A program made the position numbers and the translations under genes. From assembly GCF_010672455.1 (NCBI RefSeq), contig NZ_JAAHGO010000067.1, positions 1 to 50,189 on the forward strand: DNA of 50,189 bases. The letters are read 5' to 3'. The notes beneath the pieces were generated by a model. That model was not told the DNA's origin. It saw nothing but the letters and a program-made list of their open reading frames with translations, and searched no databases. Of the stretch, positions 1-16,585 are shown piece by piece; the stretch's first letter is position 1; every line of letters begins with the position of its first letter. This DNA is from Okeania sp. SIO2C9. Lineage in GTDB: Bacteria; Cyanobacteriota; Cyanobacteriia; Cyanobacteriales; Microcoleaceae.

Positions 1-3000
1 TACCATTGTTATCAGTATCTTCAAAAACGGTACCTGATATGGTGCCTACTTGCTCATCCACAAAGTCGTTACCAGTATCATTTTCACCAGGGTCTAAGAT
101 CACTGGGATGTTGTTAGCGATATTGTTGCTACCACCATCTGTGTCATCACCACCGTCATTTTGACCATCGACTTCACTCACATCTTGATAACCAGGTAGG
201 TTTGTTTGCACCACCTCGTAGTTACCAGGTTCTACATCTGTAAATGAGTATGTACCGTCTGAACCTGTAGTTGTAGTGTCTACAGTCTGGCCTTGGTCAT
301 CTAGCAAGGTTACAGTTACACCTTCTAGAGTAGTATCACCTGTACCATCATTATCAGTATCTTCAAAAACTGTACCTGATATGGTGCCTACTTGCTCATC
401 TACAAAGTCGTTACCAGTATCATTTTCACCAGGTGTGAGAATAACTGGGATGTTGTTAACGATATTGTTGTTACCGCCATCTGTATCATCACCACCGTCA
501 TTTCCACCATCTACCTCACTCACATCTTGATAACCAGGTAGATTAGTTTCCACAACCTGGTAGTCACCAGGAGCGACATCTGTGAATATATAGTCTCCAT
601 TGGCATCAGTTGTTGTAGTGTCTACGGTAGCGCCCTGGTCATCCAGCAACGTTATAGTGACGCCTTCTAGAGGAGTATCACCTGTATCATTGTTATCAGT
701 ATCTTCAAAGACTGTACCGGATATGGAGCCATTGGGTATCTCCTCAACCTCAGCAGTGTCATCATCAGTAACGTCATCGTTATCTTGACCATCGCCATCT
801 ACATCTAAGTCGGTGCCATCTGCATAGGTAGGATTAGCTGTTGTTGTAGCCGTATTAATTAAGTCACCATTAATAGTAGTCTCATAGAAGTAGACTGCCA
901 TATCACCAGGAGCTAAACCATCTCCAGGAGTTCCACTCAATAGCGTTAGGTCATTGATGCTTATGCCTAAGTCATTATCATCAATTTCAATACTGTTGAG
1001 ATCAGTTGCGCCAGTGTTAGTCACCTTGAAGTAGTAGGTAACCTCAGCACCAGGAGCGCCTGTAATTAATTCACCACTGCTGCCAAAGGAAGCACCATTG
1101 TCATGACCCGAAGCAACAGTCTTTTGAATTTCTATAGCTGGTTCAAAGTTCAGTGGGTCTTCTGTTTCAAACTCATCAAGGGGATCGCCACCTCCTGGCG
1201 GCCTTAACACACCTTGGTTGATAATGGTGTCTGTACCTGCTGTCAAGTCCCCAAACTCATCAATCTTCACCTTGAAGGTAATAATTTGGTTACCACCTTT
1301 GGGTAAAGCGACAGTGTTGGTAAACCCACTTTCATCTAATGGAAAAGCAGTACTACCAACATCAGCAATTGGTGAGTCTGGAATGCCGTCCCCATTGTCA
1401 TCATACTCAGTAGAGTTCAGCACATAGGTCGCATCATCAAATACTGGCGAGAAGAAGTCGAGAACGTTGAAAGACCCAGCAGGTAAATCTACTTGACCAA
1501 TATTGACAATATTGATCGAGTATAGTAAGGTATCCCCAGGACTAATCTCTCCGTCGCCATCAGCATCAGTTTCTAGTTGAGAAGTTTTTCCTGCTTCTAC
1601 AATAGGTAGGGCAGGTATCACTGTACCTAAATCAAGAGAACGACCTTGATCCGCAGTGCCTGGTCCATCAGTGTCAGCAGGACTCTGACCCCAAGCTACC
1701 GCAATATCAACGGGATTGCTCAGATCATTACTAGGATCGGCTGCAAAAATAATCGCCCCCGTCATATCCTGATCGTCTTCAGCTCCTGAATAAACAGAGC
1801 TATCATCAACAATCTTAATGCTTTCGAGAGCAGACACAGAGACAGTATTGTCAACAACGCCATCACCGTCGAAATCAATATTAATAGTTGCATCTTCGAG
1901 GGCAGTTACCCAGACCACATTGAAACTATCAAAACTGGGGTTATTTTGAGTATTACCATAACCCCAGCCAATCAGAGCTTGGGAGGTAAGTTGATTAGCC
2001 GCGGTTAAAGGATGCCCCCAGTCAAATGTCCTGCCGCTATTATCAGTTCCGCCAGTACTGTCTGTCTGAGTGAGAGCGAAAAAGTCTTCTCCTCCTGCAG
2101 TAAAGAAGCGACCTCCTGAACCATCGGGGATTGCTGGACTTAAGGCTGTACTCCCTGCTGGCACTGTAATAGTTCCATCAGGGCTACTACCACCGAAGAA
2201 GTCGTAGGAAACTGTAATATCATTGTCTGTATCTGGGTTGTACAACCACACTTGGGTTGGACCATCATTGCCATTACCGCTCTCAACACCATCGCCAACA
2301 GGGGTGTAGTAGTCGTTTGACCAATCCGCTAGTGGAGCCAGGGAGTAAAAGCGCACTTCCCACTCTGAGCCAATGTCTCCAGTCACTAGGCCTGCTTGTA
2401 CCGGAGAACTTGTTGTTATATGATCTCCTTGATTTACCCGCACCACAAAATTTTCGCCGGTGTCGAGCAGTCCTTGAGAAACATTGTTGAGGAAAACTTC
2501 GGTGTTGTCTTCTCCAGCCATCACATAGAGGCCTGTGTACTCAAATGCTTCGGTGCCACTTGTTCCTGGGACATCCTCACCCACTGGCATCACAAATTCA
2601 GTACCCCAGGTATCTGTATCCAGTACTTCTACAGCACCAGCTAGCACAGTACCTGGGTTGAAGCTACCTGCTATTTCAGGATAAGCACCACGGGTTACGG
2701 CAATGGGGAAGGTGGCCTGAATTCGATCGCTGGCATCATATAGATCTAGGTCACCGTTGATTGTGCCATCGGGATTTTGTCGCACAATTGGTACGAAATT
2801 CTCAAGTACCATTGCATCGCCACCAAAATGGACATCATCCAGAGCATCCAAAACGTTGTCTTGGTTTCTGTCAACATCGACTATTCCATCACCATCCGTA
2901 TCTGCTAATGGTGAAATTCCGTTAGTAATATCTTGGTCTCCCCAGATTCCTATTCCAGTTCCTGGAACTGCGGGATTTAGTACATCAGCTTCATAACCGT

Positions 3001-3565
3001 CTTCCCAATGGTCGTAGTAAATAATTGTGTTATCTGCGGCGATGGCGACTGAGATGATTGTGTTGATGTCTCCGTCGGTATTGGGTTGGATAGTGTCAAA
3101 AGACGTGAATACATCGTCTTCCCGTAGGGGCACAAAATAAGTTTGTACCGGAGGCGTTAGGGGTAAGGCATCGGTAAAGGTTGTTGATGCTATCTCGTCA
3201 TCAGGTGTAAAAAATATGCTATCGGCACCCACTCCCGTTGCTGTCAAATTCAACGTCGCATTTAAGGCATCGGGGGGACCACTGCCAGTACTATTATTAT
3301 CAATGGGCACAAACCACTCGGCCGTAAATTCACCAAATTCATCCACAGTGGCTTTGATAGGTTCATACACATCTACATCACCATCATCCCCCGGATCATC
3401 CGGGTCATCTGTAATCTCAACTATCACCTCTGAATTAGGCGTATACCCGCTCCCGGTAATTACTGCCGTTTCACCAGGCGCGTAATCCTCTTTGTCAGTT
3501 GAGACAATGGGCGTTAAAAAAGGTCCATATACATCCGTATTGTTACTACCCTGATTTTGATCCAT
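1..3565 (-). CDS. Giant modular surface/secreted protein with SdrD B-like repeats (3' end outside the window)
   Basis: An open frame of 1188 codons starts at ATG (3563-3565) and runs off the left edge, so the C-terminus is missing. After a short polar N-terminus (MDQNQGSNNTDVYGP) comes an Ig-like stretch (PGETAVITGSGYTPNSEV), then a long beta-rich region with Asp-rich calcium-like loops (DTDGDGIVDVDRNQD, DFDGDGVVDN), two DUF11-type segments (ending near EFGDLTAG, and starting EIQKTVASGHDNGASF), and finally tandem modules of about 112 residues of the form GTVFEDTDNN...LEGVTVTLLDDQG...GTYSFTDVEPGNYEVV. These modules match the SdrD B/CnaB-like fold used in adhesins. There is no N-terminal signal peptide, so I infer type I secretion with a C-terminal signal beyond the edge. 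A surface, sheath or adhesion role is likely but the ligand is unknown. The AGGA upstream lies about 16 nt from the ATG, which is far for a ribosome site. Confidence 0.85.
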   Translation of the reverse strand, partial: MDQNQGSNNTDVYGPFLTPIVSTDKEDYAPGETAVITGSGYTPNSEVIVEITDDPDDPGDDGDVDVYEPIKATVDEFGEFTAEWFVPIDNNSTGSGPPDALNATLNLTATGVGADSIFFTPDDEIASTTFTDALPLTPPVQTYFVPLREDDVFTSFDTIQPNTDGDINTIISVAIAADNTIIYYDHWEDGYEADVLNPAVPGTGIGIWGDQDITNGISPLADTDGDGIVDVDRNQDNVLDALDDVHFGGDAMVLENFVPIVRQNPDGTINGDLDLYDASDRIQATFPIAVTRGAYPEIAGSFNPGTVLAGAVEVLDTDTWGTEFVMPVGEDVPGTSGTEAFEYTGLYVMAGEDNTEVFLNNVSQGLLDTGENFVVRVNQGDHITTSSPVQAGLVTGDIGSEWEVRFYSLAPLADWSNDYYTPVGDGVESGNGNDGPTQVWLYNPDTDNDITVSYDFFGGSSPDGTITVPAGSTALSPAIPDGSGGRFFTAGGEDFFALTQTDSTGGTDNSGRTFDWGHPLTAANQLTSQALIGWGYGNTQNNPSFDSFNVVWVTALEDATINIDFDGDGVVDNTVSVSALESIKIVDDSSVYSGAEDDQDMTGAIIFAADPSNDLSNPVDIAVAWGQSPADTDGPGTADQGRSLDLGTVIPALPIVEAGKTSQLETDADGDGEISPGDTLLYSINIVNIGQVDLPAGSFNVLDFFSPVFDDATYVLNSTEYDDNGDGIPDSPIADVGSTAFPLDESGFTNTVALPKGGNQIITFKVKIDEFGDLTAGTDTIINQGVLRPPGGGDPLDEFETEDPLNFEPAIEIQKTVASGHDNGASFGSSGELITGAPGAEVTYYFKVTNTGATDLNSIEIDDNDLGISINDLTLLSGTPGDGLAPGDMAVYFYETTINGDLINTATTTANPTYADGTDLDVDGDGQDNDDVTDDDTAEVEEIPNGSISGTVFEDTDNNDTGDTPLEGVTITLLDDQGATVDTTTTDANGDYIFTDVAPGDYQVVETNLPGYQDVSEVDGGNDGGDDTDGGNNNIVNNIPVILTPGENDTGNDFVDEQVGTISGTVFEDTDNDGTGDTTLEGVTVTLLDDQGQTVDTTTTGSDGTYSFTDVEPGNYEVVQTNLPGYQDVSEVDGQNDGGDDTDGGSNNIANNIPVILDPGENDTGNDFVDEQVGTISGTVFEDTDNNG

Positions 3566-3697: not shown

Positions 3698-3836
3698 AAT
3701 ATTAATTTTCATCAAGATCATTGACAAACAGACAAATAATGAGGTAATTGACAGATGATTGTGGGTTTATGAGAATGGCAGAAGTTATATCAAATCCATT
3801 GGTGTAATTAGATTCATCTGTGGGGAAGGTGGGGAG

Positions 3837-4098
3837 CTAGAATATAAGTGTCAATGGTACGGATCTGAGTTGGTAGTCATTGATAGATTTTTCCCATCCT
3901 CAAAGACTTGCTCGAACTGCGGTCATGTTCAAGATATGCCCTTGGAGCTGAGAACTTATGATTGCAAGAAGTGTGGGTTGTCAATAGATAGAGATTTAAA
4001 CGCTAGTATTAATTTGAGAGATGCGGTCGGCTTGACCGTGAATGCCTGTGGATGAGTAGCCGCCGACGGCCTCACAAGAAGCAGGAAGTAAACAGTAA
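3837..4098 (+). pseudogene. tnpB 3' remnant (IS200/IS605 family, RNA-guided nuclease C-terminus)
   Basis: The readable part starts LEYKCQWYGSELVVIDRFFP and contains the zinc ribbon (SSKTCSNCG and CKKCG) and the last RuvC motif (DRDLNASINL). The two earlier catalytic regions are missing, so only about the last 75-85 codons survive. The frame breaks at NACG (TGA at 4053-4055); the usual family tail reappears in another frame as TASQEAGSKQ followed by TAA at 4096-4098. The open frame extends upstream to 3759 only because the MITE end happens to be open. It is closest to the broken tnpB at 13763-14947. Non-functional. Confidence 0.7.
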
Positions 4099-4210
4099 AA
4101 TGTCATTTTATGACGTTTTATATCGGTTTTATGAAGCAGATGAGGAGGAAGTAAACATCAAATTGTCACGTTATGTAACGCTTTGTATCAGTTTTATAGA
4201 GCAGATAAAG
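4085..4210. repeat. 63-bp tandem duplication of an IS605-type right end with hairpins
   Basis: Two 63-bp units start with GAAGTAAACA at 4085 and 4148. Each holds a short palindrome, TGTCATTTTATGACG in the first and GTCACGTTATGTAACG in the second. A related single copy lies on the minus strand at 34864-35010 next to the same tnpB 3' tail. Subterminal imperfect hairpins at the right end are what TnpA recognises in IS200/IS605 elements, so I read this as a duplicated right end. Confidence 0.5.
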
Positions 4211-4293
4211 ATTTGGCAATGGCGCTCAGGTGGAACATTTTTTTAGACCGAACCCGAGCGGATTTGATATCATCTATTTGTTGAATTTATAAA

Positions 4294-4511
4294 ATTGGGG
4301 CGTTGGTGAAAAGAGGTATGATATCTGTCCGGATAAGAGCGCGATAAAACTCTGTTCCGCTTACCCGACCAAAAAACTTTCTCCTTATACTCGGGGTTTC
4401 TTCTTCTTTCTTCCCTCCTGACTCCTGAGGACTGACTCCTGAGGACTGACTCCTGACTCCTAAGTAATTAAGATTAGTATCATACACGCGCTTTACCAAC
4501 GCCAAAATTGG
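4294..4511. mobile_element. Degenerate MITE, nested inverted repeats
   Basis: An outer inverted repeat (AATTGGGGCGTTGGTGAA at 4294 against TTTACCAACGCCAAAATT at 4494) surrounds an inner one (GTATGATA at 4316-4323, TATCATAC at 4478-4485). The interior shares CAAAAAACTTTCTCC and the TTCCCTCCTGACTCCTGA microsatellite with the clean element at 30027-30141, so it seems to be a decayed member of that family inside another short element. No coding potential. Confidence 0.45.
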
Positions 4512-4620
4512 AAATCCTAATATTATTGATTCACAGTTAGTAAAAACTACTGAAAAAGCGGATGCAACCGAGTTAGAAAAATTTCACACTCACAGTGAGT
4601 GGCAGCAGATGCAAGGTCTG

Positions 4621-4804
4621 ATATCAAATCCGGTAGCATCGGTGTAATTAGATGGGGAGATGGGGAGATAGGGAGGTAGGGAGGTGGGGAGATGGGGAAC
4701 CCACCCCTCGCCCCTCCCCCTCCCTGGAGGGGAATATAGAGAAATATTTGGTAATGGTTGAAGATGGAACATTTTTTACGTGCCGAATTAAACGGATTTG
4801 ATAT
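4621..4804. mobile_element. MITE, ATATCAAATCCGG terminal repeats
   Basis: A 184-bp element bounded by ATATCAAATCCGG and CGGATTTGATAT. The left end continues GGTAGCATCGGTGTAATTAG, and the interior is a GGGGAGAT microsatellite plus a GC-rich block (CCCACCCCTCGCCCCTCC). It sits within the smc relic directly after GCAAGGTCTG. Its head TCCGGTAGCATCGGT is shared with the ATATCATGTCCGG family at 17082 and 20286, so the two families are related. Confidence 0.65.
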
Positions 4805-4805
4805 C

Positions 4806-4975
4806 ATATCAAATTCGTTTAATTGGACATAAAAAAAATCTCGAATCGTCATAACTACGCTCATCTTTGTGATTCTCTCTCTTCCTGACTCCTGACTCTC
4901 CCTCCTGGGAGCAGGAGGGGTGGGTTGACTCCTAAAGACCTAACCAATCTGTAACTGTTTAACCTGATTTGATAT
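4806..4975. mobile_element. MITE, second copy placed head-to-tail
   Basis: ATATCAAATTCGTTTAATTGG at the left and CTGATTTGATAT at the right bound a 170-bp element that begins one base after the previous MITE ends. The smc relic resumes just downstream (CAGTCTCAGGAATCATTG). The interior contains TCCTGACTCCTGACTC microsatellite and no gene. Confidence 0.55.
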
Positions 4976-4994
4976 GACCCAGTCTCAGGAATCA

Positions 4995-5440
4995 TTGACA
5001 TCTCCAGGGGTTGAAACACCCTGGATTCCGTGGTTTACCCACCGCAAATGGGATCAATCCACATTTGCTTACAGCCTGAAGGGCAGACTTCTAAACTCCT
5101 CGGCATAGACCAAAATCTAGCTGTGAGCTTACTTTTTTTAGCTTTCACGAGTGGTTTTACTCGCGCTGGTTGGAGCAATCTTCTCGCTGCTTTAGCTGCC
5201 TGCTTGCTTTTCCTGCGGAATGCGCTCGCATTCAGCCGTCGTAGGAAATTAATTCCCCGTCTCCTGTCCACCGGAATTTCACCGCAAAGCGCGGTCATGT
5301 CATGGCGACAAACCTTGTTCTTACTTGCTATATCTAGTATAGCATGTATAGCAGATTTTTACTACGGGTTAAAATCCGCGTGTCGTTATTCAACCAGCCG
5401 TTAAAACAGGCGCTGCGTACTTCCTCCCGTTATTTTTTTA
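4995..5440 (-). mobile_element. Internally deleted IS200/IS605-like element with possible guide-RNA (omega-type) 3' end
   Basis: Read on the minus strand, the segment ends AACCCCTGGAGATGTCAA (at 4995), closely matching the right end GGGGAGGATGTCAA of the tnpB element at 7608-8948. Before it lie several strong hairpins (CCAGGGTGTTTCAACCCCTGG, GTGGATTGATCCCATTTGCG). The other end has a left-end-like hairpin (GATTTTAACCCGTAG) and TATACT-like promoter bases. No tnpB body is left; an 87-codon open frame (5035-5298) shows no nuclease motifs. It interrupts the smc relic. The family is inferred from the ends. Confidence 0.4.
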
Positions 5441-5585
5441 GGTTTTGCAAGAGCGGAAGGCTACTTAGCGAGGTATCCAACAACAACTTCAGGAGTTGGA
5501 AAATCAACAACAGCTTTTACAAGAAAAGGTAGAAGCTTCTTCCCGTCAGCAGTCAGAATATCAAGAGCAAGAATTAGCAGATATA

Positions 5586-5998
5586 CAATTAGAAAAGACC
5601 ATTATTATTGTAATTGTCTAGAGCAGTATGGATTGATTCACCAGTTGAACGGTGCCGTTGGGGGATTTTTTTTTAGGCTATATTGTATATAATATTATCT
5701 GTGTGACTAAAAGGTGATCGCGACTATCAAACCCTTACTTACTCTGTTATTGAATAGTCTAGAGATACTAATGGTGGGTTGGGAAGCAATTAAATGTGAT
5801 CGAGTTATTGAGAGCGATCGCAACACATCCTCTAGGGAAGTGAATGGATGCGATCGGTTAAAAGGGAGGAATTTTTCACCTAAGTCTCTCATGGCCTTTT
5901 TTTTTTAATCCTTACCCTGCCTTTTTTTACGCGGGAAATATGCCAAAAAGATAGGGCTTTGTTGCATGGAAGTAGCGATAGAACATCCATGCCGCAGC
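5586..5998. other. Intergenic stretch, no recognisable gene
   Basis: Between the smc relic and the 67-bp array I see only short overlapping open frames on both strands (5707-5908) with no family features, GATCG motifs and poly-T runs (5667-5676, 5896-5906). The last 70 bp (TATCGCTCTGTTTCGCC...) already resemble the array. Confidence 0.5.
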
Positions 5999-6990
5999 TA
6001 TATCGCTCTGTTTCGCCATTATTAATGTTTGATCTATTGTCCAATAGTTATTGTTCTACTGATTAGCGATCGCTCTGTTTCGCCATTATTAATGTTTGAT
6101 CTATTGTCCAATAGTTATTGTTCTACTGATTAGCGATCGCTGTGTTTGGCGATTATTGATGATTTATCTATTGTCCAATAGTTATTGCTCTGCTGAGTAG
6201 CGATCGCTCTGTTTCGCCATTATTAATGTTTGATCTATTGTCCAATAGTTATTGCTCTGCTGAGTAGCGATCGCTCTGTTTCGCCATTATTAATGTTTGA
6301 TCTATTGTCCAATAGTTATTGTTCTACTGATTAGCGATCGCTGTGTTTGGCGATTATTGATGATTTATCTATTGTCCAATAGTTATTGCTCTGCTGAGTA
6401 GCGATCGCTCTATTTCGCCATTATTAATGTTTGATCTATTGTCCAATAGTTATTGCTCTGCTGAGTAGCGATCGCTCTATTTCGCCATTATTAATGTTTG
6501 ATCTATTGTCCAATAGTTATTGCTCTACTGATTAGCGATCGCTGTGTTTGGCGATGATTGATGATTTATCTATTGTCCAATAGTTATTGCTCTGCTGAGT
6601 AGCGATCGCTCTATTTCGCCATTATTAATGTTTGATCTATTGTCCAATAGTTATTGCTCTGCTGAGTAGCGATCGCTGTGTTTGGCGATGATTGATGATT
6701 TATCTATTGTCCAATAGTTATTGCTGTGCTGATTAGCGATCGCTGTGTTTGGCGATGATTGATGATTTATCTATTGTCCAATAGTTATTGCTGTGCTGAT
6801 TAGCGATCGCTGTGTTTGGCGATGATTGATGATTTATCTATTGTCCAATAGTTATTGCTGTGCTGATTAGCGATCGCTGTGTTTGGCGATGATTGATGAT
6901 TTATCTATTGTCCAATAGTTATTGCTGTGCTGATTAGCGATCGCTGTGTTTGGCGATTATTGATGTTCTATACTATTGTCCAATAGTTAC
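5999..6990. repeat. 67-bp tandem array, 15 units, each with a HIP1 octamer and a hairpin
   Basis: GCGATCGC recurs exactly every 67 bp at 6066, 6133, 6200 and onward to 6937; the first unit (5999) has a damaged octamer. Every unit contains the palindrome CTATTGTCCAATAG. There are two unit types, b (CTCTGTTTCGCCATTATTAA) and a (CTGTGTTTGGCGATTATTGA). Their order is bba bba bba b followed by aaaaa, so the left part is a 201-bp higher-order repeat and the right part a homogeneous run. The whole unit is conserved with no unique spacers, so it is not a CRISPR array. No coding function is seen. Confidence 0.9.
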
Positions 6991-7012
6991 AGCAGTTTCC
7001 GCACATAATGTT

Positions 7013-7408
7013 GAGCAAAAACTCCTATTGCGCCATACGCAACAAAAGCAAATTCTGAGCAAAAACTCCTATTGCGCCATACGCAACAAAAGCAAATTCT
7101 GAGTAAAAATTTCTATTGCGCCATACGCAACAAAAGCAAATTCTGAGTAAAAACTCCTATTGCGCCATACGCAACAAAAGCAAATCTTGAGTAAAAACTC
7201 CTATTGCGCCATACGCAACAAAAGCAAATCTTGAGTAAAAACTCCTATTGCGCCATACGCAACAAAAGCAAATCTTGAGTAAAAACTCCTATTGCGCCAT
7301 ACGCAACAAAAGCAAATCTTGAGTAAAAACTCCTATTGCGCCATACGCAACAAAAGCAAATCTTGAGTAAAAACTCCTATTGCGCCATACGCAACAAAAG
7401 CAAATGTT
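7013..7408. repeat. 44-bp tandem array, 9 units, hairpin in each
   Basis: Units beginning GAGCAAAAAC or GAGTAAAAAC repeat every 44 bp from 7013 to about 7408. Each has the short stem-loop TTGCGCCATACGCAA. The first units end AAATTCT and later ones AAATCTT, showing a one-sided spread of variants. A decayed unit (ATTGCGATATTCGCAATAAA) follows near 7430. Units are near-identical throughout, which rules out CRISPR spacers. Confidence 0.88.
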
Positions 7409-7478
7409 GTAGAAGTAAGCAAAAATTCTTATTGCGATATTCGCAATAAAACCACTGAATCAAAACTAAGCAAAAATT

Positions 7479-9043: not shown

Positions 9044-9783
9044 AAAATATCTCGAACGGCAAAATATCTCGAACGGCAAAATATCTCGAACGGCAAAATA
9101 TTTGGAACGGCAAAATATCTCGAACGGCAAAATATCTGGAACGGGCAAATATTTGGAACGGCAAAATATCTGGAACGGGCAAATATTTGGAACGGCAAAA
9201 TATCTGGAACGGGCAAATATTTGGAACGGCAAAATATCTGGAACGGCAAAATATTTGGAACGGCAAAATATCTGGAACGGGCAAATATCTGGAACGGGCA
9301 AATATCTGGAACGGGCAAATATCTGAAACGGGCAAATATCTGAAACGGCAAAATATCTGAAACGGCAAAATATCTCGAACGGCAAAATATCTCGAACGGG
9401 CAAATATCTGAAACGGCAAAATATCTGAAACGGCAAAATATCTGGAACGGGCAAATATCTGGAACGGGCAAATATCTGGAACGGGCAAATATCTGAAACG
9501 GGCAAATATCTGAAACGGGCAAATATCTCGAACGGCAAAATATCTGAAACGGCAAAATATCTCGAACGGCAAAATATCTCGAACGGGCAAAATATCTCGA
9601 ACGGCAAAATATCTCGAACGGGCAAAATATCTCGAACGGGCAAAATATCTCGAACGGCAAAATATCTCGAACGGGCAAAATATCTCGAACGGGCAAAATA
9701 TCTCGAACGGGCAAATATCTCGAACGGCAAAATATCTGAAACGGGCAAATATCTCGAACGGCAAAATATCTCGAACGGGCAAG
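9044..9783. repeat. 17/18-bp minisatellite upstream of smc, about 43 units
   Basis: Units of the type CTCGAACGGCAAAATAT (17 bp) or CTCGAACGGGCAAAATAT (18 bp) fill 740 bp. Variants CTCGAAC, CTGGAAC, TTGGAAC and CTGAAAC are clustered. Between about 9130 and 9240 two variants alternate as a 34-bp dimer (CTGGAACGGGCAAATAT with TTGGAACGGCAAAATAT). At the edges are GCATCCTGCCTGTCTCCATC and GCAAGATGCCCATTCCACA. Long open frames through it on both strands are a by-product of a repeat lacking stop codons. Confidence 0.9.
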
Positions 9784-9870: not shown

Positions 9871-12800
9871 ATGGTTCATATCAAACGCCTGGAACTCACA
9901 AACTTTAAATCTTTCGGTGGCACTACTACTATTCCGTTGCTGCCTGGATTTACTGTGGTTTCTGGGCCTAATGGTTCTGGCAAATCCAATATTCTCGACG
10001 CACTTTTATTCTGCCTGGGCCTATCTACTTCCAAAGGTATGAGAGCCGAACGCCTACCAGACCTAGTTAATAACAAATTAGCAGGACGCAAAACTGTTGA
10101 AACTATAGTTAAAGTCACTTTTGATTTAGAAGATGTAGAAACAAGTCTAAATGGGTACGAAGACCCCGAACCTTCACAGTCAGAAACCCAAACAACTACA
10201 GAAAATCCACCAGAAGTAATAGAAAATGGAGCAAATACTCCAGAATCTGAAGATCCATTTGAGATAGCTTCATCTTTTCATTCATTAAGTGAGTGGAGTA
10301 TTTCCCGCCGCCTCCGAGTAACTAAACAAGGGACTTACACCTCCACTTATTATATGAATGAGCAACCATGCACCCTGACCGAACTCCACGAACAACTAAA
10401 TCAACTCCGGGTCTACGCCGAAGGATATAACGTTGTGCTTCAGGGTGACGTAACCAGCATTATTTCCATGAAGTCTCGCGAACGTCGGGAAATTATTGAT
10501 GAAATGGCAGGTGTGGCTCAATTTGACAGAAAAATTACCTTGGCCAAAGATAAATTAGACTTGGTGAAAGAACAAGAAGAAAAGAGTGGCATTGTAGAAA
10601 AAGAACTGAAAAAACAATGTGACCGTCTTTCTCAAGACTGCGTAAAAGCTCAAAAATATCAAGAATTGCGGGGTCAACTAGAACAAAAGAGTCTCTGGCA
10701 AACAATTCTTAAATGGCAAAATCTCCAAAAACAAGAATGGAAACTTAGAGAAAATATAGAATCAGGCGATCGCTCTGCCACAGAAATTAACCAAAATATT
10801 CAAACCAAACAAACCGAAATTCAACAGGCCCAAACCGAGCTAGACCAACTCAATGTCCAAGTAAAAGCTTTGGGAGAAGAAGAACTTTTAGCCCTACAAT
10901 CAACCCTCGCCACCCAAGAAGCTGACCGCCGTCAACTCAAACAAAAGCATAAAGAATTAGAAACCACAATTGAGCAAACCATCAATAACCTCAGCCAACT
11001 CCAACAAGAAATACAGAAACATCAACAAAATCTGGAAATATTAGCCACAAACAAAATTGTTCAAGCTCAAGAAGTCGAATCTCTAGAGACCACTCGCAAC
11101 CAAGCACGGGAAACTCTTAACCAACAACGAGAGTCAGCTAGTGCCATTGCCTCTACTGCTGAAGCTTGGATACAAGAACAAGCCCAACTTCATCATCAAA
11201 TTGAAACCCTACAACAAACCCTCAACCCCCAACTTACCGAACAAGCAAGAGTTAGGGAACAAATACATCAGCTAGAAAAGCAAATCCAAGAACAGCAAGA
11301 GTCCATGGCCGCCCTGGCGGTAGAAATAGAAAATCAAAATACTTACCATAAAAAAATAGAAAAGTCAAGAGAGACCGCCAATTATCAAGTAGAATCCTTG
11401 ACCAAACAATTAGCAGCAGTAGAACAAGACCTGCAAATTCAACAAGATACTCAAACTCGCCTCCTCCAAGAACAAAGGGAAAGACAGCGGAAACTAGATA
11501 AATTAGAAGCCCAACAACAGGCAGTTCAAGAAGCTTCGGGAACTTATGCCACAAAAATGCTGCAACAGTCTGGTATTTCTGGCATTTGTGGTTTAGTGGC
11601 ACAACTGGGGAGAGTAGAACCAAAATATCAGTTGGCTTTAGAAATTGCTGCCGGAGGACGCCTGGGAAATATGGTGGTAGAAAATGATGCAGTGGGAGCT
11701 GCCGGGATTGAATTTTTGAAGCGGCAAAGAGCTGGGAGAATGACATTTTTACCTTTGAATAAAATTCGGTCTCCTCGTCTGAACCGGGATGATAGTTTGC
11801 GTTGGGGGGCAGCGGGGTTTATTGATTATGCGGTAAATTTGATTGACTGCGACTCTCGTTATCAGAATATTTTTGCTTATGTGTTTGGCTCCACCGTGGT
11901 ATTTGATACTTTGGCAAATGCTCGGAAGTATTTGGGTAAACATCGAATTGTTACTCTGGATGGGGAAATATTGGAGACCAGTGGGGCGATGACTGGGGGA
12001 AGTGTGTCCCGTCGTTCTGGTAGCTTGCATTTTGGTACAGTTGATGGTAATGAGTCGGCAGAAATAGGGGAAATGGAAGTTCATCGCCAGCGCCTCCAGG
12101 AAATAGATATTGTTTTGGAGCGCTGTCAGGTAGAGATTTCTCAGAGAAAGGAGGATGTGAAGGAGCGATCGCAAGCTTTGATGGAAGGGAAGCAGTATTT
12201 TAGAGAAACTCAGCTCAAAGTGGAGCAAATTGAGTCAGAATTGCAAAAATTGAGGAAACAACAGGAGCAAGGACAAGGGCAATTACAGAAAAATGAACGA
12301 GAACTGGCCAATGCTCGGACAAGATTAACATTCTTAGACCAAGAAATTCCGGCACGAGAAGTCCAATTAACAGAGTTAAAGCAAACTTTGGCTGAGTTGG
12401 AAAAGTCTCATACTCACAGTGAGTGGCAACAAATGCAGGAGATGATTAGGTCTCAGGAAACTGTATTGCAAGAGCGGGAGAGTAATTGGCGAGCTGCTCA
12501 ACAACAATTTCAGGAGTTGGAAAATCAACAAAGACTTTTACAAGAAAAGGTAGAAGCTATTTCTCGTAGACAGTCAGAATATCAAGAGCAAGAATTAGCA
12601 GCTAGGGAAAATATTAAAGATATAAATAGTCAATTATCGGTTGTAGACGAGCAAATTGCTGAAATTAAAGCAGGTATGGCCAAAGTAGAAGAAAAATTAG
12701 GCACAGAAAAACAAAAAAGAGACCAAGCAGAGGCAAGTCTGCGAGAACTTTATTTAGCTAAACAGCAATTAGAATGGCAACTACAAAAACTCCAAGAATC

Positions 12801-13551
12801 TCAGGAAGGACGTCGGGAACAGTTAGTGGCTTTGCGGACTCAGTTAGAAGAACAAAAGGCAGAATTACCCGAACAAGTGCCAGAAGTGCCGGAAAATATT
12901 AAAATAGGAGAATTAGATAAGGAGGTGCGATCGCTACAGAAACAACTTCAGGCCCTAGAACCTGTAAATATGTTGGCCCTGGAAGAATATGACCAAACCC
13001 AAAAACGTTTAGAAGAGCTAAGTCAAAAGTTAGCTACTCTGGAAGGAGAGCGGACGGAGTTGTTGTTAAGAATAGAAAACTTTACTACTTTGAGACAACG
13101 TTCATTTTTTGAGGCTTTCAATGCTGTGAATGAAAATTTTCAGACCATTTTTGCCCAACTTTCTGAAGGAGATGGTTATCTACAGTTAGATGATACAGAA
13201 GACCCATTCAACAGTGGGTTAAATTTAGTAGCCCACCCCAAAGGAAAACCAGTGCAAAGATTAGCCTCTATGTCTGGGGGAGAAAAATCTTTGACAGCTT
13301 TAAGCTTTATATTTGCCTTACAGCGTTATCGTCCATCTCCTTTTTATGCCTTTGATGAAGTGGATATGTTTTTAGATGGGGCAAATGTGGAGCGATTAGC
13401 TAAAATGATTAAACAACAGGCACAACAAGCTCAATTTATAGTTGTCAGTCTACGGAGGCCAATGATGGAATCATCCGATCGTACTATCGGCGTTACCCAA
13501 GCTAGGGGCGCTCATACCCAAGTTTTAGGGATTAAAATGACTAAAGATTAA
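9871..13551 (+). CDS. smc: Chromosome segregation protein SMC
   Basis: A 1226-residue SMC ATPase starting MVHIKRLELTNFKSFGG. The Walker A GPNGSGKS is at residues 32-39. A cyanobacterial acidic insert (about 88-145, rich in Glu, Pro, Ser, Thr) splits the head before EWSISRRLRVTKQGTY. Two long coiled coils flank the hinge (about 566-720, from SGISGICGLVAQLGRVEPKY). The C-terminal head has the signature SGGEKSLTALSF (about 1135) and Walker B YAFDEVDMFLDG (about 1158). SMC with ScpA/ScpB forms condensin, which loops and organises the nucleoid; no scp gene is in the window. All motifs are intact. No clear ribosome-binding site is seen. A duplicated fragment of its coiled-coil coding region lies at 4571-5585. 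Confidence 0.97.
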   Translation: MVHIKRLELTNFKSFGGTTTIPLLPGFTVVSGPNGSGKSNILDALLFCLGLSTSKGMRAERLPDLVNNKLAGRKTVETIVKVTFDLEDVETSLNGYEDPEPSQSETQTTTENPPEVIENGANTPESEDPFEIASSFHSLSEWSISRRLRVTKQGTYTSTYYMNEQPCTLTELHEQLNQLRVYAEGYNVVLQGDVTSIISMKSRERREIIDEMAGVAQFDRKITLAKDKLDLVKEQEEKSGIVEKELKKQCDRLSQDCVKAQKYQELRGQLEQKSLWQTILKWQNLQKQEWKLRENIESGDRSATEINQNIQTKQTEIQQAQTELDQLNVQVKALGEEELLALQSTLATQEADRRQLKQKHKELETTIEQTINNLSQLQQEIQKHQQNLEILATNKIVQAQEVESLETTRNQARETLNQQRESASAIASTAEAWIQEQAQLHHQIETLQQTLNPQLTEQARVREQIHQLEKQIQEQQESMAALAVEIENQNTYHKKIEKSRETANYQVESLTKQLAAVEQDLQIQQDTQTRLLQEQRERQRKLDKLEAQQQAVQEASGTYATKMLQQSGISGICGLVAQLGRVEPKYQLALEIAAGGRLGNMVVENDAVGAAGIEFLKRQRAGRMTFLPLNKIRSPRLNRDDSLRWGAAGFIDYAVNLIDCDSRYQNIFAYVFGSTVVFDTLANARKYLGKHRIVTLDGEILETSGAMTGGSVSRRSGSLHFGTVDGNESAEIGEMEVHRQRLQEIDIVLERCQVEISQRKEDVKERSQALMEGKQYFRETQLKVEQIESELQKLRKQQEQGQGQLQKNERELANARTRLTFLDQEIPAREVQLTELKQTLAELEKSHTHSEWQQMQEMIRSQETVLQERESNWRAAQQQFQELENQQRLLQEKVEAISRRQSEYQEQELAARENIKDINSQLSVVDEQIAEIKAGMAKVEEKLGTEKQKRDQAEASLRELYLAKQQLEWQLQKLQESQEGRREQLVALRTQLEEQKAELPEQVPEVPENIKIGELDKEVRSLQKQLQALEPVNMLALEEYDQTQKRLEELSQKLATLEGERTELLLRIENFTTLRQRSFFEAFNAVNENFQTIFAQLSEGDGYLQLDDTEDPFNSGLNLVAHPKGKPVQRLASMSGGEKSLTALSFIFALQRYRPSPFYAFDEVDMFLDGANVERLAKMIKQQAQQAQFIVVSLRRPMMESSDRTIGVTQARGAHTQVLGIKMTKD

Positions 13552-13562
13552 ATCTATTGAAG

Positions 13563-13596
13563 AAGGAGACAGGAGACAGAAGACAGGAGACAAGGG
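13563..13596. repeat. STRR microsatellite (GGAGACA heptamers)
   Basis: GGAGACAGGAGACAGAAGAC and further GGAGACA units just after the smc stop. Heptameric STRRs of this type are common in filamentous cyanobacteria and recur here at about 20529, 29418 and 46919. Confidence 0.7.
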
Positions 13597-13762
13597 TAGC
13601 GGTTTGCTGGTACACAACTATCGTTAATGTCCCTACAGGAGTCAGGAGCTGATTGCTAGTATCAATATCTATGGCAATTTCCGGTAATAACTGACACATC
13701 TGATGGGTATTTTTTGGACTTAGCCAAAAAAATAGTTGACAATGTGGTTGGAGGTGATTTGA

Positions 13763-14947
13763 TTGTACGCCAAAAAACTCGAATTAAAACTCAGTAACCA
13801 AGAGCAATCAAAAATGGCTCAATGTGCTGGCCCGTGCCCGTTTTGTTTACAACTATGGCCTCAATATGGTTAATGCAACTTCTGCCATGACCAAAGTTAA
13901 CAAGGGTGGTCAGAAAGTTAGCTTGAGTTACAAATTACGCATTTTAGAAGCTAAAAAAGTCTTTACTAACTATGTAAAAAAGCAACCACAATATACCTGG
14001 GCTAATAATTATTCCTCTCGCATTTACCAAAGTGCTTTTCAACATCTAGGTGAAGCATTTAAACCGAAATAGGGAACCAGTAAATATCCTAAATTGAAAA
14101 GGAAAAAAGACAGACAATCTTTTACTGTTTATGACGGTAATGGAAAAGTAACTATTAGTCCTGGTAAAAAAATTAAAATACCAACATATTAAAACTTTTC
14201 AATTATGGGAATCAATTCCTTACACCACAGCAAGCCATACTTTTACTATTAGTAGAACAGGGGAAAAATGGTTTGTTAGTTAAAGCAATTGAAGCCGAGC
14301 AGTTGCCAGTTCATCCTCTATTAGATGAGCGGCAATACGAAACTTTTGGTATAGATGTTGGGGTCAAACAATTTGCCAGTATAGCAAAGCAAGAAAAGAG
14401 GGACTCCGAAGTTGTAAGTCTCCCAGACTCTATTAAACTAGAGCAATTAAAAATGGCTAAATTTCAATGGCGTAATCGGAAGAAACAACTAGGAGGTAAA
14501 GGTAAACAACCTTCAAAAAATGCTATTAAATATTACAAAAAACTCGCGAAGTACCATGACCGTGTGAAGAACGTGCGCAGGGATTTCATAGAGAAAACTA
14601 CTACAAAATTAGTGGGTAAAGTTAAGCACGTCTGCTTAGAGAGTTTAAATGTGAAAGGGATGATGCAAAATGGTAAATTGGCAGCATCAATAGCAAGGCT
14701 TGGATTTTATGAATTTAGACAACGATTGACAACCAAAATCGTAAGCTCTGGTGGGACAGTAGTGCTAGCTGACCAGTGGTTTCCATCATCCAAAACTTGT
14801 CATAATTGTGGTTGTATTAACCAAGAATTAAAGCTAAAAGACCGTACTTTTAACTGTCCTCACTGCGGAATGAGAATAGACCGGGACTTGAATGCGGCAC
14901 TGGTGTTATCTCAGTATGGGGAAGTTAATGAGAATGCTAGGGGGTAG
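13763..14947 (+). pseudogene. tnpB: Second tnpB, broken by frameshifts and a stop
   Basis: The frame opens at TTG 13763 (LYAKKLELKLSNQEQSKMAQ), shifts near 13825 (then ARFVYNYGLNMVNATSAMTK), meets TAG at 14070-14072, continues in the same frame (GTSKYPKLKRKKDRQSFTVY), and shifts again near 14190 into the last 224 codons. The RuvC residues (GIDVGVKQF, CLESLNVKGM, DRDLNAALVL) and zinc ribbon (CHNCG, CPHCG) are retained. It belongs to a different TnpB subgroup from the 7707 gene and is close to the remnant at 3837. Downstream, to about 15108, comes a likely right end with GCAAGAAGCAAACAT and CTCCTGTGGATTCAAGGC. No tnpA. Confidence 0.85.
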
Positions 14948-15109
14948 GCTGTACCCGAATTTACGCTTGTGAACTGGAAGAGGGCGGCCTCCCAGGTTGA
15001 AGCAAGAAGCAAACATCTAAGACTTGCATTACCAGGTTTTACCCAATGAGTGCCGGAATTGTATAGGTATTGTACAGCAGTGAGAATAAGCTCCTGTGGA
15101 TTCAAGGCC

Positions 15110-15243
15110 GATAAATTACAATATAGAAATTAGTAATTTATCTTAACTTTTGAATTTGGACTGCTTTCTCAGAGAGCAGCTTCGGGAGGATGTCAATGAT
15201 AAATTACAATATGGAAATTATTAATTGTTCTTAACTTTTAACT
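15110..15243. repeat. Direct repeat (about 47 bp) flanking an IS605-type right-end stub
   Basis: GATAAATTACAATATAGAAA (15110) recurs as GATAAATTACAATATGGAAA (15198), each followed by AATT and TTAACTTTT. Between them, 15158-15196 holds the hairpin CTGCTTTCTCAGAGAGCAG and GGGAGGATGTCAA, the right-end sequence of the 7608-8948 family. Either a 3' stub was captured in a duplication or the duplication arose around it. Confidence 0.55.
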
Positions 15244-15281
15244 TTTGACTTTTGACTTTTGACTTTTGACTTTTGACTTAT
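15236..15281. repeat. STRR microsatellite (ACTTTTG heptamers)
   Basis: Six heptamers of the type ACTTTTG lie immediately upstream of the PRC-barrel gene. They may set promoter spacing, but no direct sign of that is visible. Confidence 0.7.
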
Positions 15282-15306
15282 TATTAATAATCGGGATTAA
15301 ACAATA

Positions 15307-16407
15307 ATGACATTTGAACAAATTTGGCAACGCTCCGATCTGTTAGGGACTCAAATAATCACCCGTGATAAAGGTAAGCGCCTAGGAGTAGTAAGCCAGT
15401 TATGGGTAGACGTTGATAGACGGGAGGTAGTAGCTATTGGACTACGGGACAATATATTAGCCGTAGCTGGAATACCTAAGTTTATGTTTCTCGAAAATAT
15501 CCGTGAAATAGGCGATGTTATTTTGGTAGATGACGAAGAAGTTGTGGAAGAAGATATTGATCCTGAAGCTTATAGTAGTCTAATTAATAGCGAAGTCCTG
15601 ACAGAAAATGGTGAACTATTAGGCCGAGTTCGGGGTTTCAAGTTTGATACTACAGATGGCAAAGTTTTGTCATTGATTATTGCTTCTATTGGTATACCAC
15701 AAATTCCAGAGCAAGTTATTAGCACTTATGAACTCTCAATTGATGAAATTGTTAGTAGTGGGCCAAATCGGCTGATTGTGTTTGAAGGTTCTGAAGAAAA
15801 ACTCAAACAGTTAACAGTGGGAGTATTAGAACGTTTAGGTTTAGGAGAAGCACCTTGGCAAAAAGAGGAAGATGGATTATATTATCCTCCCACTGTGAAA
15901 CCTGATAATCAATTAGGTACAGGACAACCAGCTACTCAGGAACCTATTCGTACAGTAGCACCGTCAACTCAAGAAGCATGGGATGAAGATTGGGCAGAGC
16001 CAGAACCCAGAAGACCTAGAGTAGTTGAACCTGAACCTGTTTATGATGACTACTATGAACAAGAAGTTGCTCCCCCTCCACGTCAGCTAGAGCGAGAGGC
16101 AGTTTATGAAGATTATTATGAGACAGAAGCGGTTGTTGCACCACCAGTCGCCCGTCAGGTAAGACAAAAACCTACTTATGATCAGTATGAAGAAGATAAT
16201 TGGGGAGAGTCAGACGGATATGAGTATGAAGAGGAGAAATATGAACAGAAAGAATATAAACCTGCTGCAGAATATGAATATGACGAAGATATAGAAAAAG
16301 ATGCCTGGGCTGATGATGAGGCTCCAAAACCCTATCAAGCACCTCGTGTAAATATTCCTCAGAAAACTAAGATGCCAGAATATGAAGAAGAACCTGGTGG
16401 TTATTAA
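15307..16407 (+). CDS. PRC-barrel domain protein with acidic disordered tail
   Basis: 366 residues. Two PRC-barrel-like modules occupy about 1-80 (RSDLLGTQIITRDKGKRLGV) and 90-175 (INSEVLTENGELLGRVRGFK). A loop with an APW motif (GLGEAPWQKEEDGLYYPP) follows. The remaining 150 residues are rich in Glu, Asp, Tyr and Pro (VYDDYYEQEV, DEDIEKDAWADDEAPKPYQ) and look disordered. PRC-barrels are small beta domains in RimM, photosynthetic reaction-centre H subunits and cyanobacterial proteins of unknown role, often beside smc. The start follows the STRR and has only a weak ribosome site. The function is not known. Confidence 0.85.
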   Translation: MTFEQIWQRSDLLGTQIITRDKGKRLGVVSQLWVDVDRREVVAIGLRDNILAVAGIPKFMFLENIREIGDVILVDDEEVVEEDIDPEAYSSLINSEVLTENGELLGRVRGFKFDTTDGKVLSLIIASIGIPQIPEQVISTYELSIDEIVSSGPNRLIVFEGSEEKLKQLTVGVLERLGLGEAPWQKEEDGLYYPPTVKPDNQLGTGQPATQEPIRTVAPSTQEAWDEDWAEPEPRRPRVVEPEPVYDDYYEQEVAPPPRQLEREAVYEDYYETEAVVAPPVARQVRQKPTYDQYEEDNWGESDGYEYEEEKYEQKEYKPAAEYEYDEDIEKDAWADDEAPKPYQAPRVNIPQKTKMPEYEEEPGGY

Positions 16408-16585
16408 ATAGTGTTTACCAGCTTGCAGCATCCGCAAATAGCGATCGGCAAAAACTTAAGGTATAGCAGTTGAAGGAAAGGTTAGGATAGATTAAAAGCT
16501 TAAAACTTAGGCAAAGTAAGATTTTTCCAACTTCCTTCTTCTTCTCTCCTGATATAACTAGGTAGATATGATATAAAATCCGGTT

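Follow-up and report, generated by a model that had tools for sequence, protein, structure and literature searches.

A decayed pseudogene fragment of smc, broken by small repeats and an IS200/IS605-like insertion, upstream of intact smc in Okeania sp. SIO2C9

Introduction

Bacteria usually purge dead DNA fast. Among the small elements that may interrupt such DNA, those of the IS200/IS605 type have fixed ends and a preferred host tetranucleotide on one side, and they make no target duplication. Trichodesmium belongs to the same family as the strain treated here, Okeania sp. SIO2C9. One study describes Trichodesmium as rich in repeats and its clusters of paralogous genes as enriched (about 78%) in 'selfish DNA elements' (PMC9950141). 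In genomes of this sort, a dead stretch of gene carrying many small elements is to be expected. No literature on transposable elements in Okeania genomes was found.

The window, by which we mean the whole stretch of DNA analysed, comprises 50,189 nucleotides of Okeania sp. SIO2C9 (assembly GCF_010672455.1, contig NZ_JAAHGO010000067.1, positions 1 to 50,189, forward strand). Its stretch from 3.6 to 9.8 kb consists mostly of repeats and gene remnants and holds a relic of smc, upstream of the intact gene. Here, we describe the anatomy, decay, surroundings and probable origin of this relic.

Results

The intact smc gene lies at 9871–13551 on the forward strand and encodes a protein of 1226 aa with Pfam SMC_N and SMC hinge domains. 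The smc genes of the four congeners compared (Okeania SIO3B5, O. hirsuta, Okeania SIO2B3 and SIO1I7, as a set G001–G004, with O. hirsuta as G003 and this strain as G000) are 97–98% identical to it. The part copied by the relic, 12394–12604 on the forward strand, corresponds to about residues 842–912, which we take to be the C-terminal coiled-coil arm, placed behind the hinge (residues 570–687). Elsewhere in the gene, the smc match splits around residues 88–140 in eight genomes (G012, G014, G017, G019, G024, G028, G029 and G034), with both parts assigned an equal open-frame length, a sign that the head domain may hold a variable insert at residues about 90–140. The smc match of Anabaenopsis elenkinii (L163, 10001–14907) is 1.2 kb longer than elsewhere, with parts recurring just upstream, and an insertion or repeat inside the gene is possible there.

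The relic is a dead, truncated copy of the C-terminal arm, about 210 bases in total, in three forward-strand pieces at 4570–4620 (piece A), 4976–4994 (piece B) and 5442–5583 (piece C) that are colinear with, and on the same strand as, smc 12394–12604. The initial annotation had called for an alignment of this region with smc, and local alignment of window 4000–6000 against the smc region gave two plus/plus matches. Piece C matched 12463–12604 at 121 of 142 bases (85%, E 2e-42), and the clearly matching part of piece A, 4570–4613, matched 12394–12437 at 38 of 44 (86%, E 6e-10), reading ELEKFHTHSEWQQMQ in the relic against ELEKSHTHSEWQQMQ in smc. Both pairs were also recovered by a repeat finder. 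Piece B has an exact 10-base core, GTCTCAGGAA, that matches smc at the expected place, and its score was reached by 0 and 1 of 2000 shuffles under two scoring schemes. The proposal of a duplicated coiled-coil piece of smc in three colinear, same-strand fragments is thus borne out. The middle fragment, annotated as 4983–4997, is real, but its right end had been set 3 bases too far, as TTG at 4995–4997 belongs to the inserted element. Likewise, the proposed distance of 8 kb from smc holds only for the matching part of the gene, which is 7.0–7.8 kb away; from the start codon the relic lies 4.3–5.3 kb upstream.

In a shuffle test, no significant further similarity to smc was present left of 4570 or right of 5583, where 349 and 459 of 1000 shuffles, respectively, did as well (629 and 727 under a second scheme). 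A by-eye reading of 5581–5596 as more smc with two small in-frame deletions was not adopted. A search of the strain's own genome (10.9 Mb, 317 contigs) with 5442–5583 gave two matches, the relic itself and smc (best 14 of 43 candidates), and with the smc protein as query, the matches were smc, the relic and a weak one to an ATPase domain (best 17 of 91 candidates). A better fit to another gene, which the annotation had named as one outcome that would speak against it, was found nowhere among the own-genome candidates scored. With its significant colinear similarity to smc, the relic is a real pseudogene fragment of that gene, of an ordinary kind.

The reading frame is broken by three inserts and by an in-frame TAG in piece C that replaces a Trp codon (VLQERKAT*RGIQQQ... 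in the relic against VLQERESNWRAAQQQ... in smc). On 199 aligned columns, 8 changes are peculiar to the relic, and these fall on codon positions 1:2:3 as 3:4:1, compared to 40:10:66 for the differences between Okeania smc genes on the same columns (10 non-independent pairs summed). At most one third-position change in 8 has a chance of 0.014 under the smc pattern and of 0.20 if the positions are equal. This pattern suggests, from a small sample of sites (n = 8), that the relic changed like non-coding DNA on its own branch, free of coding constraint. Polarisation on these columns placed 2 more differences on the Okeania stem, and 11 have both states in the outgroups.

Three small repeats or elements break the relic and leave the order of its pieces undisturbed. 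Two of them, at 4621–4804 and 4806–4975, stand in tandem between pieces A and B, and both have terminal inverted repeats with ATATCAAATCCG/CGGATTTGATAT-type ends and more copies elsewhere in the genome. The two tandem MITEs of the initial annotation are therefore retained as MITE-like repeats. Its description of the elements as nested is not, as they were seen side by side with none lying within another.

The third insert is a non-autonomous element with an IS200/IS605-like mode of insertion at 4995–5441, assigned to the reverse strand from its target side and starting with TTGAC on the forward strand. The genome holds at least 23 further copies of more than 300 bases (among the best 40 of 1117 candidates), and all 19 of the copies read share a constant part that runs from TTGAC to GTTT, with differing flanks outside it. 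When TTGAC...AG is taken out of the relic and GTTT is kept, the remainder fits outgroup smc without a gap (e.g., GAAGCA-GTTTTGCAAG in Tri_jk18), which predicts that GTTT is host sequence. This prediction was examined in an empty-site test in which flanks were joined for the 19 copies, 7 joins were searched in the four congeners and 24 loci were kept. Nine distinct empty places were obtained from 5 copies, and two more places (G002) were filled. The empty places carry exactly GTTT in six cases, one of which (L252) is a weaker, repeat-like match, GTT before a T run in one (that is, GTTT, one T shorter) and GTCG in two, both of the latter belonging to a single copy (L017), with four host bases of which two have changed in the congeners. 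TTGAC was absent from all 9. The congener places (7 GTTT, 2 GTCG) agree with the right-end prediction, as expected from the annotation's suggestion that the relic would give empty-site boundaries, and they speak against the reverse assignment, in which TTGAC would be the host's target and GTTT would belong to the element. The element is thus 4995–5441, 447 bases long, beside 5′-AAAC (host GTTT at its right as read on the forward strand), without a target duplication. The relic served here as a natural empty-site marker that correctly showed which end of the element is host DNA.

A preferred host tetranucleotide on one side and no target duplication are traits of IS200/IS605 elements, and the annotated IS605-like element is confirmed as to its mode of insertion; it would have entered at a GTTT target, leaving no duplication, as those elements do. 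Terminal hairpins were not significant (left end −6.7 kcal/mol, z −1.16; right end z +1.08). Neither a Y1 transposase nor TnpB was recognised in its open-reading frames, 5030–5404 (+) and 5035–5298 (−), which had no Pfam match up to E 1, so the element is at most a non-autonomous derivative and is not filed here as an IS200/IS605 member.

On its left, the relic is preceded by an SdrD_B surface-protein gene at 2–3565 on the reverse strand, which resembles O. hirsuta contig G003:C302, by a TnpB C-terminal fragment with a Pfam TNB domain at 3759–4055, and by a dispersed repeat with inverted ends at 4290–4510, about 60 bases away. A first copy of a tandem duplication surviving on this side was considered and found no support, window 2–3565 being the SdrD_B gene. 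On its right, the relic adjoins, at 5583–5642 on the reverse strand, the surviving 3′ end of a DUF7507/DUF11 repeat-protein gene, otherwise deleted here, of which O. hirsuta has the whole (G003:C178; L106 953–5140). The O. hirsuta gene, of 4.2 kb (L106 830–5146 compared), is cut here to its last 60 bases: C178 is colinear in reverse with window 5583–7264, and the window skips about 4.26 kb of C178 after 5642 and is then colinear through the 67-base and 44-base arrays. At E 1e-20, a threshold that also misses the 60-base remnant, the gene had no match in G000, G001, G002 and G004. What comes after it in O. hirsuta is not the relic but different sequence with a CAP-domain gene. In the four other Okeania genomes, this CAP gene is located elsewhere, on other contigs, so the O. 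hirsuta arrangement may be peculiar to that species.

Three tandem repeat arrays, all common to the window and G004, separate the relic from smc. The 67-base array occupies 6002–6989, the 44-base array, which is present on O. hirsuta contig C302 as well as C178, occupies 7007–7409, and the 17-base array lies just upstream of smc at 9044–9778. Long open frames occur on both strands of the 17-base array.

The search of related genomes suggested by the initial annotation was run, and the relic was absent from all four congeners. With piece C and its right flank searched in whole genomes and all candidates scored, the smc-like matches in G001–G004 were smc itself, and with 5500–6020 searched in all 5 Okeania genomes, the congeners again gave smc only for the part 5500–5583 (best 40 candidates per genome). 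Upstream of smc, the contigs of G001 and G002 run for a further 0.7 and 0.3 kb, respectively, and stop short of the place of the relic. In G004, where smc is on a 750-kb contig, the relic is absent and other genes lie upstream of the 67-base array. Across the family, 5442–5583 was matched in 15 of 61 genomes: the own genome had two matches (relic and smc), 13 others had one each, identified as smc by place or alignment, and one had a 32-base match.

The relic does not resemble a copy of the present smc of its own genome, and in trees it falls outside the five Okeania smc genes or at their base. Its identity is 84.4% to its own smc and 87.3% to that of SIO2B3. At 14 sites, the five Okeania smc genes are unanimous against the relic and its state is present in outgroups; at 7 of these, 11 or more of the 13 outgroup rows have the relic state, with the qualifications that one of the 7 falls in the GTTT needed by the element and that 4 of the 13 rows may repeat others. 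Of the 21 sites where no Okeania gene has the relic state, 11 show both states in the outgroups, and at 3 sites the relic shares its state with Okeania alone. Two sites have a state peculiar to the smc of this strain among the Okeania genes, and at both the relic carries the alternative.

A clade of the five Okeania smc genes that excludes the relic was supported at 98.1/99 (SH-aLRT/UFBoot; 205 columns, nine named outgroup smc genes) and at 96.8/97 after six joint columns were dropped. With the full-length smc tree as backbone, the best placement of the relic was the Okeania stem. On this fixed backbone, the AU test rejected the branch of this strain's smc (p = 0.007 with 205 columns, 0.003 with 199) and did not reject two basal crown branches (p = 0.05–0.11) or the outgroup branches beside the Okeania stem; the SIO2B3 branch had p = 0.08 with 199 columns and 0.03 with 205. 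The SH test rejected no Okeania branch (p = 0.14–0.35), and with free topology the AU test did not reject the relic joined to this strain's smc (p = 0.17), at a likelihood 14.6 log units worse. These placements draw on a phylogenetic signal of about 200 bases, and the full smc sequence, too, resolves the Okeania crown with low support (UFBoot 46, 68 and 78). Judged from these alignments, a recent origin from this strain's smc is improbable, and the relic probably diverged close to, or earlier than, the common base of the smc genes sampled from Okeania.

Partial copies of smc in flanking DNA were surveyed at 81 smc loci, including that of the window, and two clear cases were found, the window and Arthrospira PCC 9108 (L177). 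In the latter, the last 279 bases of smc (13332–13610) recur at 16272–16550, 2.7 kb downstream, beyond an 82-base tandem array of 2.6 kb (13650–16248) and just before a PRC-barrel gene; the 98% identity of the two indicates that this copy is recent. Other matches were an inverted, exact 113-base copy at a contig end in L156, which is probably due to assembly, three in L163 (85 bases at 88%, 173 and 131 at 68%) and short ones in L128 and L142. In G013, which has the same genus code as Arthrospira, a C-terminal smc match with one stop lies 4 kb from smc.

Discussion

We read the relic as an old, local, partial duplication of smc that has been decaying since, and give this a probability of roughly 0.6. 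One local copying event in the repeat-rich stretch upstream of smc would account for it, either as a tandem duplication that had one boundary near 12604 within smc and whose first copy was trimmed later, or as a short template switch during repair; the junction bases favour neither route. The event would date to about, or before, the divergence of the sampled Okeania smc genes, after which the relic would have been passed down this lineage and have disappeared from the others by loss or rearrangement. That it lies on the same strand as its source and a few kb from it argues for local copying, and a random landing within 8 kb on the same strand of a 10.9-Mb genome has a probability of about 0.0007, a figure calculated after the fact. 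With four congeners lacking the relic and G004 carrying different genes upstream, a duplicate of this age needs several losses. A more specific version of this history, in which the relic is an smc fossil that predates the living Okeania radiation, was kept in one lineage and came from short, local template switching at the tandem arrays found beside smc in this family, with the Arthrospira copy as a second, recent product of the same process, is possible and we advance it only tentatively. On the basis of these two cases, local copying of smc pieces beside arrays is plausible.

The main rival is horizontal transfer from a relative of Okeania outside the sample, with the incoming DNA ending near smc. 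Both the branching of the relic outside the five Okeania smc genes and its presence in none of the four congeners would follow from such a transfer. We nevertheless consider it unlikely, since a long functional history in a donor should have left an excess of third-position changes that the 8 private changes do not show, and a same-strand landing within 8 kb of smc calls for a further explanation. Considerably less probable is the fast decay of a copy made recently from this strain's own smc. The relic does lie beside that gene, and neither the free-topology AU test (p = 0.17) nor the SH test on the fixed backbone (p = 0.14–0.20) rejects this origin, but a recent copy should share the two states peculiar to the present gene, should not keep states that have been replaced in all five Okeania smc genes, and should be closer to its own smc than to that of SIO2B3; the AU test on the fixed backbone also speaks against it (p = 0.003–0.007).

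An artefact of assembly might be suspected in a contig with many multi-copy repeats, but neighbouring pieces of smc flank both inserts in the proper order, which gives independent support for the assembly joins across them, and the relic differs from each of 18 aligned smc segments, so that we regard an artefact as very improbable. Retroposition-like copying through RNA, one of the routes offered in the initial annotation, found no support: an RNA step is not required for an internal piece of about 210 bases that lies on its source's strand and a few kb away from it, and no hallmark of an RNA copy, such as transcript ends, a tail or a nearby reverse transcriptase, was noticed in the sequence read. 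We give this route hardly any weight. Equally little is given to a functional relic, for example a small coding or regulatory sequence, in view of the in-frame stop, the insertions, the non-coding pattern of change and its absence from the congeners. We conclude that the relic has no function of its own.

An old, local duplication of smc may be compared with several known systems. The MITE-like repeats resemble cyanobacterial MITEs in being short, with inverted ends and several copies, and differ in that no parent element or target duplication is assigned to them here. The 447-base element shares with IS200/IS605 elements its fixed ends, the one-sided host tetranucleotide and the lack of a duplication, and differs from them in that no transposase or TnpB was recognised in its two open-reading frames and its terminal hairpin is not significant. 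The Arthrospira PCC 9108 copy is likewise a same-strand, partial copy of smc a few kb from the gene and beside a tandem array, although it comprises the last 279 bases, lies downstream of smc and represents a separate event. Because dead DNA is usually purged fast, a relic of 200 bases that seems to be about as old as the smc divergence of the genus is useful for timing such decay in marine cyanobacteria rich in repeats; otherwise, it is ordinary genome debris. Like other bacterial pseudogene fragments and partial duplications, it is truncated, stop-bearing, interrupted by elements and placed beside its housekeeping source gene, yet it differs from them in being apparently at least as old as the Okeania smc split while present in one of five genomes.
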